Shown here: positions 4,927 to 31,009 of the stretch, one piece after another
How positions within the stretch are numbered: position 1 is the first letter of the stretch
Layout of the letters: every line of letters begins with the position of its first letter
Source: Prevotellaceae bacterium
GTDB lineage: Bacteria; Bacteroidota; Bacteroidia; Bacteroidales; Bacteroidaceae
Assembly (NCBI GenBank): GCA_022508585.1
Contig: JAFLUU010000006.1
Span: 1 to 32,022 of the forward strand
Direction: 5' to 3'
Length of the DNA: 32,022 nucleotides
Program-made: the position numbers and the translations under genes
Notes under the pieces: generated by a model
The model's database searches: none
Told to the model about the DNA's origin: nothing
Seen by the model: only the letters and a program-made list of their open reading frames with translations

Positions 4927-6951
4927 ATGAAAATGTTTACATTGTCTGCGCAGACCAAGTTGCGCAGTGTTGCTATTTTGATGGCCGCTATAGTGATCGG
5001 TGGGTTTGGCGCTGTGTTGACAAAGGCTGATTATACTATATATCCTGTGCCGCAAAGCATTACTTATGGCTCTACGCAGTTACAGCTGACGCGCAATGTT
5101 AATGTGGTTGTGGAGAAAGGTATAGATGAATACACTAAAGCTCGTCTGCACGAGGTAATGACGGAAGAAAATGGTGTCAATCTCACTTTTAGCAATAAGG
5201 CAAAGTCTGGAGTAAGCAATATCTGGCTCGGCATCAATGGTTCTAAGGGTAAGGCCGACAAGAAAGCTACCAATGTTGGCATGAAGCGCGAGGTGTTTGG
5301 CATTGTTGGCAAATATGACCGCCACATATTACGAGTGCACAACAGCGGTAAGGAAATTGCCGACGTTATTATTGTGGGTGAGCATACCAATGCTGTGTTT
5401 TACGCGCTTGCAACTCTTGAACAAATGCTGGAGCAGGCTCAGGCCGACGCTAATAATAACAAGAAACTGCAAGAAACCACAGTGGACGACTATGCAGATT
5501 TGCAATATCGCGGCATTGTGGAGGGATACTACGGCTATCCTTACTCTTTTGATGTAAAAAAAGACTTGATGCAGTTCTTTAAGCGTTACAAGATGAACAC
5601 TTATCTCTACGGAGCCAAGAGTGACCCCTATCACTCCGGGTATTGGCGCGATGCTTACCCCGAAACCATTACATCGGTGCAGGAAAAGAATGGCTGGCTC
5701 TCGCAACAGATGATTCGTGAGCTCTCACAACTCTCTATGGAGACTAAGGTTAACTTTATCTGGGCTATTCATCCCAATAGCGGTAAGGCTGTGAACTTCC
5801 ATACTGTTGATTCTACAGCCATGGCCGTTGATGACGTGATGTCTAAGTTTGAAAAGATGCACGCTCTCGGTGTACGTCAGTTTGCTGTTTTCCTTGATGA
5901 TGCAGGCTGGGACTTCCGCGATGTAAACAATTATCGCGATTTCTTGACCAACCTTCAAGGCTCGCTTGAAAAGCGTTTTAACCGCAATGCCGTCAATCCT
6001 TCTGACACAGTGATGCCTATTCATTATGTTCCTCATATTTACGCTATCAATTTTGCTAATGAAGAACAGTTAAAGACATATTTCGACCCAATCAGTGAGA
6101 CTCCTTCTAATATTGTGGTTTACACTACTGGTAGCGGTGTCTGGAGTTCTTTGCGCAATAATGATTTCATTAAAATGCAAGAGCTGATGAAACGTCCCGT
6201 TGCCCTCTGGTGGAATTATCCGTGCAATGATAATAAAGATGGTCGCGTCTATACTGCAGATATGATTTCTACTCTTCACGAGATGGGGCTTCCTACTCCC
6301 GATGATGCCATCCCGCAGTGTCTGGGAATGGTTAGCAATCCAATGCAGCAGGGCGAAGTGGCTAAGATTTGCCTCTTCGGAGTTGCTGATTACGCGTGGA
6401 ATAACCGCGCATTCCGCAGTGTTGAGAACTGGAAGGCGTCCTTCGCTCGCATAGTGGGCAAAGAGAATGCTCCGCTCTATAATTATCTGGCCAAATATTT
6501 GCGTTACGAGGATAGCAATGATCTCGGTCAGCTTATCGACAAGTATAAGGCTGGTTATGCCGACGGCAAGTTTGAATGCAAAGCTTTATGCGACACTCTG
6601 AAGACTATTAAGAACGCCGCTGAGAGCATGTTAGCAATTGCTAATGCTCCTTGCAGCAAATCCGACGAGCTCTTGCTTAATGACCTTACCCCTTGGTTGC
6701 TCAAGTTGGGTAAGATGGCAGAAACTGCACTCGACCTTTTGGCTTTACCCTCCTATGCAGATGCAAGTGCAAAGGGTGTTCAACTATGCAAGGTTGCTCA
6801 AGCGCTTGCTGATTTCAAGGATAAGCGCGAATATAAGGTAGATGCTCTTGAGGGCATGGGTGAAAATCCGCCTTCAGAGCTTCATGCTGTAGAGCCCAGC
6901 CACAAGTATTTAATGCCGTTCATTAACTGGCTCTACGAACAGCAGAAATAA
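4927..6951 (+). CDS. GH84 family beta-N-acetylglucosaminidase (O-GlcNAcase/NagJ-like), secreted
   Basis: GH20/84 N-terminal domain (YTIYPVPQSITYG), RGIVEGYYGYPYSFDVKKDLMQFFKRYKMNTYLYGAKSDPYH, IWAIHP, FAVFLDDAGWD (Asp-Asp pair), WNYPCND. Confidence 0.9.
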   Translation: MKMFTLSAQTKLRSVAILMAAIVIGGFGAVLTKADYTIYPVPQSITYGSTQLQLTRNVNVVVEKGIDEYTKARLHEVMTEENGVNLTFSNKAKSGVSNIWLGINGSKGKADKKATNVGMKREVFGIVGKYDRHILRVHNSGKEIADVIIVGEHTNAVFYALATLEQMLEQAQADANNNKKLQETTVDDYADLQYRGIVEGYYGYPYSFDVKKDLMQFFKRYKMNTYLYGAKSDPYHSGYWRDAYPETITSVQEKNGWLSQQMIRELSQLSMETKVNFIWAIHPNSGKAVNFHTVDSTAMAVDDVMSKFEKMHALGVRQFAVFLDDAGWDFRDVNNYRDFLTNLQGSLEKRFNRNAVNPSDTVMPIHYVPHIYAINFANEEQLKTYFDPISETPSNIVVYTTGSGVWSSLRNNDFIKMQELMKRPVALWWNYPCNDNKDGRVYTADMISTLHEMGLPTPDDAIPQCLGMVSNPMQQGEVAKICLFGVADYAWNNRAFRSVENWKASFARIVGKENAPLYNYLAKYLRYEDSNDLGQLIDKYKAGYADGKFECKALCDTLKTIKNAAESMLAIANAPCSKSDELLLNDLTPWLLKLGKMAETALDLLALPSYADASAKGVQLCKVAQALADFKDKREYKVDALEGMGENPPSELHAVEPSHKYLMPFINWLYEQQK

Positions 6952-27542: not shown

Positions 27543-29438
27543 CTATTCTATAACCTTTTCTATTGCTTCTTGGTCAAGGCCAACCAATTTATACAACTCG
27601 TTCACGGCACCATGCTCCACAAAGTGGTCAGGCAACCCCATTCTGTGGAGCGGAGTGTGGCATTCATGATCTTGCAGCCACTCGGCAACGGCACCACCGA
27701 AGCCGCCGCTTAAAGAACCGTCTTCCACGGTAATTATCTTCTCGTATTTTGCTTCAGCCACTTCGTGTAAGATGTTTTCATCTAAGGGCTTAACGAAACG
27801 CATATCGTAGTGAGCGATGCTATTGCCTTTGGCTGCGAGTTTATCAATCGCCTTACTTGCCGTAACGCCTATGGCGCCTAATGAAAGTACGCACACCCTG
27901 TTGCCGCTGCGCAGCTTGCGCCCTCTGCCCACGCCGACAGTCTCCATAGGCGTGCGCCAGTCGACGGTAGAGCCCTTGCCGCGTGGATAACGAATCACCC
28001 AAGCCCCCTCAGCGAGCGCGGCGGTGTACATCATGTTGCGCAACTCTGGCTCAGTCATGGGCGAGCAAATCGTTAGGTTAGGCACCGTGCGCAGAGCTGC
28101 CATGTCAAATGCCCCATGGTGGGTAGGGCCGTCTTCACCCACCAATCCGGCGCGGTCAAGACAGAGCACCACATGCAGATTGCTGATAGCCACATCATGA
28201 ATGATGTTGTCGTAGGCTCGTTGCGCAAACGACGAGTATATATTGCAGAACGGAACGAGTCCACCCCTCGCCATGCCGGCAGCCAGCGTTACGGCGTGTC
28301 CCTCGGCAATACCCACATCAAACACACGCTCGGGCATCTCGTGTTGCATGATGTTCATCGAGCAGCCGGAGAGCATCGCAGGGGTAACACCCACAATCTT
28401 CTGGTTTTGACGAGCCAGTTCCAAGAGCGTTTCGCCGAACACAGTCTGGAATTTCGGCGGCAGGTTGCCGCAATCCTCCTCCTTCAAGCGTTCACCGGTC
28501 TTGGGGTCGAACATACCCGGGGCGTGCCATGCCGTAACATCGCGCTCGGCAGCCTCATAGCCCTTGCCTTTTACAGTATGAATGTGCAGCAACTTCGAAC
28601 CTGCCATGTCCTTGAGTATTTGCAGCATCTCCACGAGGCGAATCACATCGTGGCCGTCGGCAGGGCCGAAGTAGCGAATGTTCATACCCTCAAATATATT
28701 CTGTTCGCGCGTTAGGAGCGACTTAAGCGAGTTGTTAAGGCGCAGAATGGCATTCTTGCGCTTCTCCGTCAGCACCCCGAGGCGGTTTAAGTTGCGCGCC
28801 ATGTGAAAACGGAAGCGGTTGTACCACTTACTCGTGTGCAGGCGCAATAGATACTGCTTCATGCCGCCCACGCTGTGGTCGATGCTCATATTGTTGTCGT
28901 TGAGGATTATGAGCATATCGTTGGGCGTTGCCGACACATTGTTCAGACCTTCAAATGCTAAGCCGCCGCTCATCGCGCCGTCGCCGATAACCACAGCCAC
29001 CTTGCGCTTCTTGTCTCCTTGCTGCTTGGCTGCCACCGCCATGCCCAAACCCATGGATATAGAGTTGGACGCGTGGCCGCAAGTGCAGCTGTCATATTCG
29101 CTTTCTTCGGGCGAGGGGAATGGTTTGAGCCCGCCCAACTGACGATTGGTGCTGAACGCATCGCGACGCCCCGTCAAGATTTTATGACTATAGGCCTGAT
29201 GTCCCACATCCCAGACAATGCGGTCGTAAGGCGTGTCAAACACATAGTGTAACGCCACCGTAATCTCCACCGCACCGAGACTGGAGGCGAGATGACCCGG
29301 GTGTTCTGCCAGCACCTCTATGATGCGGTGTCGTATCTCGCTGCACACTTGCGGTAACTGCTCCACTCTTAGTCGGCGCAAGTCGGCAGGCAGATCAATT
29401 GTGTTGAGCAATTTATAATCGTAGTCTGTATCTTCCAC
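27543..29438 (-). CDS. dxs: 1-deoxy-D-xylulose-5-phosphate synthase
   Basis: [84 protein letters not shown]. Confidence 0.98.
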
Positions 29439-29465
29439 AATATAGATGCAATATGCAATTTAGTG

Positions 29466-29473
29466 CAAAAGTA
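29466..29473 (-). promoter_or_regulatory. Candidate -7 element (TACTTTTG) for the dxs-trkA-trkH operon
   Basis: Plus strand CAAAAGTA, about 28 nt upstream of the dxs start codon. Confidence 0.5.
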
Positions 29474-30020
29474 GCAACTTTTTATCAATACTCGTGCAAC
29501 AAACCACCCCTTTTCGTCCTTTCGTCGCCTTTTCCCCTTGCAAAGACAGCATCTCACAACTCCTTGCGCACATCTCGCCGTTCTTATCTCGCGAAAATGC
29601 GCTGAAATTCGCGTGTACGGTGTCTTGTAGGCACACGGGGATTTTCGCGCAACTTTTTTGCGCCTTCGCACACCCTAACTCGCTGATTGATATAACGCTT
29701 TTCGGCTACTTTTTTGCAGCGAAACCACACATTCTACGCTCAAAACATTTGTTTTGCACCTTTTGATGGGGCAAAACACCTATATTATCCCTCCAATCAT
29801 CCCCGATTTTTGTCGTTTTAGTGCGTTTTTCCTCCAAAAACACGCAAAATTCGTCCTAAAACATCGTGTTTTTGTTTCACCGCTTTCAGGGTTCAGTTTG
29901 TATTACGCACTTCAGCAGAGGTTTCGTACCATTTTGGATTGTCTTTTACTTTTCTGCAGAATCCCACCTTACTCATTTTTTTGTTAAATTTTCTACAATT
30001 TTTTCAATCCACGATTTCCT

Positions 30021-30158
30021 TTATTTAATTCTTTTTGTGGAAGTTGACCCACAATGGGGGCAACGGGGCAAAGGAGTAGACTTCAAAATGTACCCTCCCG
30101 AAGTATGCGTAAATACTTCACCGCAATTTTTGCATTTTCTTGTCTCTAATATCAACAT
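30021..30158 (-). CDS. Small (45 aa) zinc-ribbon protein, absent from the ORF track
   Basis: Minus strand ATG at 30158 to TAA at 30021-30023: MLILETRKCKNCGEVFTHTSGGYILKSTPLPRCPHCGSTSTKRIK, with two zinc-knuckle CxxCG motifs. TAACTTTG -7 box at 30185-30192 and an A-rich leader. Confidence 0.6.
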   Translation of the reverse strand: MLILETRKCKNCGEVFTHTSGGYILKSTPLPRCPHCGSTSTKRIK

Positions 30159-30184
30159 ATCACTGTTTTTTATGATTTATTTGA

Positions 30185-30192
30185 CAAAGTTA
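30185..30192 (-). promoter_or_regulatory. Candidate -7 element (TAACTTTG) for the 45-aa zinc-ribbon ORF
   Basis: Plus strand CAAAGTTA, 27 nt upstream of the ATG. -33 not clear. Confidence 0.45.
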
Positions 30193-30293
30193 CTGCCATT
30201 TGGCGACAGAAGCGAATATTAACTTCAATTTTTTTTAATTTTCCACCAAGTGGCATATTATAAATGGTAATTTTGTATCAGGCATTATAGACT

Positions 30294-30344
30294 ATGTTGG
30301 CAATGTATTACTACGACCTGCAAGGCCGCCGCGTGGCTGAAACA
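30294..30344 (+). pseudogene. Relic of a T9SS-type C-terminal sorting domain (MYYYDLQGRRVAETS)
   Basis: ATG TTG GCA ATG TAT TAC TAC GAC CTG CAA GGC CGC CGC GTG GCT; YDLQGRRV is the conserved start of type A sorting domains. No upstream gene body, no downstream GIYI/VxxGKK part. Confidence 0.55.
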
Positions 30345-30567
30345 TCACAAACTGGGCGTGAAGTGAGCTCGCGAACGGCAAACACGAAGTGGGCGCAAGC
30401 CGAAGCAGCGCAGTCACGCTAAAAGCGTGGGGCGCTACGAGCGGAGGCGAGAGCGTTAGCGACACAAGGCGACACAGCTCCACCTCACGATAGCAAACCT
30501 CACCAATAATATGTAAAACATCGCCAAACTGATACCATACCCCCTCAAAGTTCATAGAAAAACCTAT

Positions 30568-30596
30568 CGCGCGAGATTTTTTATCGTTCTCGCGCG
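30568..30596. repeat. Perfect 9-bp inverted repeat CGCGCGAGA-N11-TCTCGCGCG
   Basis: 30568-30576 and 30588-30596. Confidence 0.8.
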
Positions 30597-30598
30597 TA

Positions 30599-30722
30599 GA
30601 AATGTCGTCAAAATTTGAAAATTCATATACAAATTCTCGAGAAATCATATAAGAATTATTATAACTTTATATATGAATTTTTGAAAATTCGTATATGATT
30701 TTTTGAAGTTCAACGACATTTC
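30599..30722. repeat. ~124-nt imperfect long inverted repeat (AT-rich hairpin) with 10-bp perfect ends GAAATGTCGT / ACGACATTTC
   Basis: Left arm 30599 onward (GAAATGTCGTCAAAATTTGAAAATTCATATACAAATTCTCGAGAAATCATAT) aligns with the reverse complement of the right arm (GAAATGTCGTTGAACTTCAAAAAATCATATACGAATTTTCAAAAATTCATAT). Confidence 0.75.
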
Positions 30723-30761
30723 TGCAAATTTCCACGACATTTCGACGCGTGCGATGGGCTT

Positions 30762-30800
30762 AAAATCGGGCGCGGAGACCTTTTTGCCGTGTGCTAACGA
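30762..30800 (+). repeat. Dispersed intergenic repeat, copy 2 of 2
   Basis: AAAATCGGGCGCGGAGACCTTTTTGCCGTGTGCTAACGA, same orientation as copy 1. Confidence 0.75.
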
Positions 30801-31009
30801 GGTTGGGTATTGTGTGCGCGAGAAAATGGTGTGGAGGTGCGATGTTGTGTGCAGGGACGAGCGGACATTAAATAAAGGTGTGCGTATTATTAAATGGTAT
30901 GCTCGCACTATTTAATATGGTACGCGCGAAAAATATCTGCGCAAATAGTGGTAGGGGAGGGCGCGTATATGTGAGTTTTTTCGTAATTTCGCGAAAATTT
31001 TAGAATACT

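Follow-up and report, generated by a model that had tools for sequence, protein, structure and literature searches.

A stand-alone zinc-ribbon reading frame, probably shortened by a nonsense codon, in an intergenic region of a Prevotellaceae bacterium

Introduction

The FmdB/Zn_ribbon_8 proteins (PF09723; TIGR02605, CxxC_CxxC_SSSS) are small proteins with a single N-terminal two-knuckle ribbon, and they provide the best library match to the microprotein analysed here, although the latter scores below the curated cut-offs of both models. The zinc ribbons of HypA, MCM, Rpo12 and Sir2 are alike in fold class, but they are domains or subunits of other systems. Stand-alone ribbons also occur in the same bacterial order as the microprotein, in part beside genes for dynamin-like GTPases, a group to which the bacterial dynamins LeoA, LeoB and LeoC belong (PMC4159319). 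For Bacteroidetes, transcription and translation starts have been characterised by a -7 promoter element of consensus TANNTTTG and by a preference for A at position -3 (PMC6847099).

The DNA analysed here, hereafter the window, is a stretch of 32,022 nucleotides from a gut-type Bacteroidales bacterium, in which an earlier note had drawn attention to a 45-aa zinc-ribbon microprotein with a promoter of its own. Our best explanation of this locus, to which we assign a probability of roughly 55%, is that it is a horizontally acquired accessory gene for a stand-alone zinc ribbon, which is expressed or was so until recently and which was probably shortened by a nonsense TAA.

A zinc-ribbon reading frame and its promoter-like box

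The ORF (translation MLILETRKCKNCGEVFTHTSGGYILKSTPLPRCPHCGSTSTKRIK; Table 1) is too small for usual annotation and is the sole gene within a gap of 1,571 bp, flanked by genes that are presumably dxs and a DUF1846-like gene. Its knuckles are CKNCG (C9-x2-C12-G) and CPHCG (C33-x2-C36-G), 20 residues apart; the exact translation and layout given in the earlier note were thus confirmed, as was the isolated position in an intergenic region of about 1.5 kb. No tRNA was found in the window, and no Rfam model matched it at the gathering threshold.

Table 1. Coordinates of features in and around the intergenic region (positions in the window).
Feature	Position	Strand	Remarks
dxs (presumed)	27543-29438	-	Flank of the gap
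Intergenic region	29439..31009	.	dxs and DUF1846-like gene not found adjacent in congeners
Second dispersed repeat	29583-29873		
In-frame continuation past TAA, RKSWIEKIVENLTKK then TGA (29973-29975)	29973..30020	-	Putative lost C-terminal helix
45-aa zinc-ribbon ORF	30021..30158	-	ORF translation; Pfam Zn_ribbon_8; AlphaFold2 model and structure matches
Stop TAA of the 45-aa ORF	30021-30023	-	
TAACTTTG, match to the Bacteroidetes -7 element	30185-30192	-	26 nt between box and ATG
Short ORF	30294-30422	+	Perhaps a gene remnant
Dispersed imperfect palindrome	30568-30775		
DUF1846-like gene (presumed)	starts 31010	+	Flank of the gap

Markov simulation of the gap, repeated 3,000 times, never yielded the pair CxxCG-x(10-30)-CxxCG and gave a plain CxxC pair in 2.9% of the runs. 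The top Pfam match of the 45-aa protein is Zn_ribbon_8 of the FmdB type (E=1.8e-6), at 28.3 bits against a curated cut-off of 34.4, and in NCBIfam it is the FmdB-type TIGR02605 (E=2.3e-5), at 24.4 against 31.3. A single-sequence AlphaFold2 model (pLDDT 74) has strands at residues 3-9, 15-20 and 41-43, which, together with the sequence, agrees with the zinc-ribbon fold class of two CxxC knuckles with beta-hairpins. Its top Foldseek matches in the PDB are weak, none at E<=0.001, and include MCM, HypA, Sir2 and Rpo12 zinc-ribbon proteins; sequence comparison with solved structures gave nothing significant. On the basis of the simulations, the Pfam and NCBIfam matches, and the model with its PDB matches, the motif is beyond chance and the four-Cys ribbon is real as a sequence feature, so that the stand-alone ribbon proposed earlier is supported. 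The four cysteines are predicted to bind Zn2+. A Lar-like restriction alleviation protein was considered and rejected, its models falling short of their curated cut-offs (PF14354, 14.9 against 28.6 bits; TIGR03655, 15.7 against 39.6 bits); phrog_6422, a Lar-like model with no stated cut-off, matched at E=4.6e-4, and PADLOC gave no match for the microprotein.

The synonymous codon score of the ORF (-0.125) lies under those of all 192 same-length pieces of the genes of the window (lowest -0.111), and this atypical use also fits non-coding sequence. An ORF that is no gene at all, arising in repeat-rich spacer DNA and resembling a ribbon by chance, would agree with a codon score within the non-coding range and with the absence of close homologs described below; however, the aromatic and Gly positions of a ribbon are kept alongside the four-Cys layout, and both the Pfam E-value and the simulations argue against such an origin, which we regard as highly improbable.

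The distance of the box TAACTTTG from the ATG is counted as normal because it is similar to that in front of dxs (TACTTTTG, 27 nt) and to that in front of the gene at 4927, whose box lies at 29 nt. The 28 occurrences of the TANNTTTG motif in the window represent no enrichment over the 25.7 expected, and no clear -33 TTTG element was seen upstream of the ORF. A promoter belonging to the microprotein, as claimed earlier, is plausible from this box and its spacing. The leader, described before as A-rich and typical of Bacteroidetes starts, is A/T-rich, but a G occupies its position -3, where A is favoured.

Distribution and origin of the gene

No close homolog was found among 18 congener genomes, six of them with a completeness of 90% or more, or among 399 genomes of the family, where the best match reaches 49% over 40 residues (E=1.9e-4, genome G122). 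By tblastn, plasmids contained no close homolog and phages only two weak partial matches from Listeria phages (E=0.8); viral contigs gave no homolog, and a peptide-pattern scan of 84,980 species gave no close one at the sensitivity of such a scan. The idea of a conserved 45-aa microprotein is not borne out in these collections. That peptide-pattern scan, run on genome contigs, gave 13 matches; those inspected were rejected as relatives, being unrelated proteins with PRCPHCGS-like ribbons in common. By eye, we take the inspected ones to be FmdB, DUF35-like, sirtuin-like and DNA polymerase IV-like proteins.

The nearest look-alikes are stand-alone ribbons of 45-76 aa, 36-51% identical to the microprotein, from other Bacteroidales genera. 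The nearest short ones are L095/L175 (G122; about 50% identity) and L116/L177 (G216; 37-45% identity), the latter being 45 aa long and ending right after the second knuckle; all of these differ from the microprotein in genus and in surroundings, the microprotein gene standing alone. Single-sequence scores against the microprotein are about equal (27-22 bits) for a proteobacterial FmdB, L136, L095 and L116. Near L095, PADLOC recognises a BnzB-like protein (L117:4766-6007, E=1.2e-34). The earlier note had named two outcomes that would speak against its microprotein: an absence of conserved homologs, which is largely what we find at close range, and homologs that are only an internal part of a longer protein, which applies only mildly, as a lost tail. 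The first Cys lies 8-10 residues after Met in most look-alikes; since the microprotein has a similar distance, its N-terminus appears to be full-length and no scrap from inside a larger protein.

Wherever both dxs and the DUF1846-like gene were located in a congener, they occupied separate contigs, and apart from the opening bases of the latter gene the gap has nothing in common with the regions upstream of their congener counterparts. Two dispersed repeats are contained in the gap. The first, an imperfect palindrome, is partially matched at dozens of places in the draft genome, mostly at 70-94% identity; it is MITE-like and as RNA would fold at -78 kcal/mol (z = -7.6), and the weak, sub-threshold microRNA matches of Rfam on it were dismissed as artefacts of the long hairpin. 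At least five other contigs carry copies of the second, with 80-94% identity. The short ORF on the plus strand starts with MLAMYYYDLQGRRVAE and presumably resembles a tail that secreted Bacteroidales proteins carry at the C-terminus.

The atypical codons, the absence of the gene from 18 congeners, the non-adjacent flanks and the repeats in the gap fit a history in which the gene was acquired horizontally and entered a rearranged site rich in repeats. Non-coding DNA would fit these data as well, but the ribbon signature speaks against it. The abundance of dispersed repeats would also suit a microprotein that is the leftover ribbon from the N-terminus of a longer protein, for instance a ribbon plus a membrane segment, whose downstream part has decayed beyond recognition, and in G384 a similar ribbon does stand at the N-terminus of a protein of 181 aa that contains a long hydrophobic stretch (L190). 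This history seems rather unlikely, as the gap shows no further similarity to congener loci, the ribbon is intact, as are the start and the promoter-like box, and the sequence beyond the stop resembles the tail of short look-alikes.

The reading frame beyond the stop codon

The in-frame continuation RKSWIEKIVENLTKK was overlooked in the earlier note. Past the TAA, another 15 codons follow before the next stop, profile matches extended into this stretch, and a readthrough model has a helix at residues 50-60; most look-alikes are 58-76 aa long and carry a C-terminal helix-like tail. A first, HMM-based tail test, in which 31% of shuffled tails were as good, was weak since the HMM aligned tails poorly, and including the tail raised the family-model score by just 0.8 bits. 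Direct alignment to the tails of look-alikes, a post hoc test that we judge the better of the two, gave a top local score of 34, a value attained in 3.2% of the shuffles and in no case among 1,000 open 15-mers drawn from that gap; in one example, SWIEKIVENLTKK pairs with TWPDKLIKLFTKK, with a stop after each. A complete 45-aa form, as first proposed, is thus disfavoured by the greater length of most look-alikes and by a plausible copy of their tail just past the TAA, and we place truncation of the gene by this codon at a little over even odds. Since the assembly is a draft of 176 contigs with a completeness of 86%, the TAA may also be a sequencing error.

The 45-aa look-alike in G216, which stops just past the second knuckle, leaves alive the reading that the microprotein is complete, functional and naturally of 45 aa, the frame past its stop being open by chance. 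The promoter-like box at normal spacing agrees with this, as does the chance of 33% for 15 open codons at local composition. We consider it possible but doubtful, given that the majority of look-alikes have the longer form, that the tail in the window is similar to theirs, and that the microprotein is not conserved in any congener.

The YKxIW ribbon family of Bacteroidales

Profile searches reached a family of stand-alone Bacteroidales ribbons of 58-80 aa, with the consensus MxRGxTxFKCxxCGxxF..IEYxAT..S.PxxCPxCGSxxTxP...YKxIWExM, represented at L113, L105, L107, L102, L109, L120 and other loci and named here YKxIW after its C-terminal motif YKxIWExM. Profile matches at E<=0.001 occur in 47 of the 399 family genomes, some of them not of the YKxIW family. 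No Pfam or NCBIfam model matches the family above its cut-off, and it is uncurated. With the microprotein it shares a stand-alone ribbon near the start Met, a C-terminal helix-like tail and the bacterial order, but the microprotein lacks the IEY-x-AT middle and YKxIW tail motifs (alignment A5). Profiles A1, A3 and A4 contain the window sequence and so inflate the scores of the microprotein; in an independent model that excludes the window it scores 25.2 bits (26.0 with the tail), outlying members 60-62, a sirtuin ribbon 22.2 and FmdB 13.2. It is therefore poorly separated from unrelated ribbons, lying at 25 bits near the 22 of the sirtuin and far from the approximately 60 of true members.

Across 27 loci of the family, neighbouring genes, named by Pfam and PADLOC, are recurrent though not universal: double C2H2-like (10 loci), Sel1-repeat (5), dynamin-like GTPase, including LeoA/LeoBC-like (5), DUF1232 (4) and DUF6140 (4). 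The 23 control loci contained no gene of these types; as the controls are surroundings of dxs and DUF1846 genes in congeners only, the association is suggestive. The double C2H2-like gene encodes a protein of ~85-125 aa with two fingers of the type CxYCGxxF...LTSxxCxxHPxGxNKGxHKLYEG (L113:4659-5018 and nine other loci) and usually lies directly upstream of the small zinc-ribbon gene. The ribbon motif also occurs as part of a 593-aa Sel1-repeat fusion protein at L096:6788-8569, where two more single-ribbon genes adjoin.

The neighbours of the microprotein include none of these types, and a search of its genome for a C2H2-like partner found none, so that carrying the neighbourhood role of the family over to the microprotein is speculation. 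There is a slim chance that it is a divergent, naturally short member of such a family, an accessory factor of membrane-acting dynamin-like or other defence clusters that here occurs solo.

Proposed history and significance

According to the explanation that we prefer, a horizontally acquired gene probably shortened by a nonsense codon, a Prevotellaceae species would have gained a small zinc-ribbon gene, and the TAA would have cut its 61 codons to 45, with loss of a C-terminal amphipathic helix. The intact form would most likely have been a small adaptor, whose ribbon would contact protein or nucleic acid and whose basic amphipathic tail would bind a partner or the membrane; the 45-aa form would be impaired. 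The microprotein represents an ordinary type of small zinc ribbon; it is an orphan and probably truncated, and its gene looks like a possibly decaying accessory gene that represents no new protein class.

By itself the microprotein matters little: many stand-alone ribbons exist, and the present example is lineage-specific and may be truncated. It illustrates that a promoter-like box in front of an open frame does not guarantee a complete small protein. It also points to an uncurated Bacteroidales ribbon family of 58-80 aa, whose genes recur next to those of dynamin-like GTPases and further defence candidates, and this YKxIW look-alike family is worth more attention than the microprotein.
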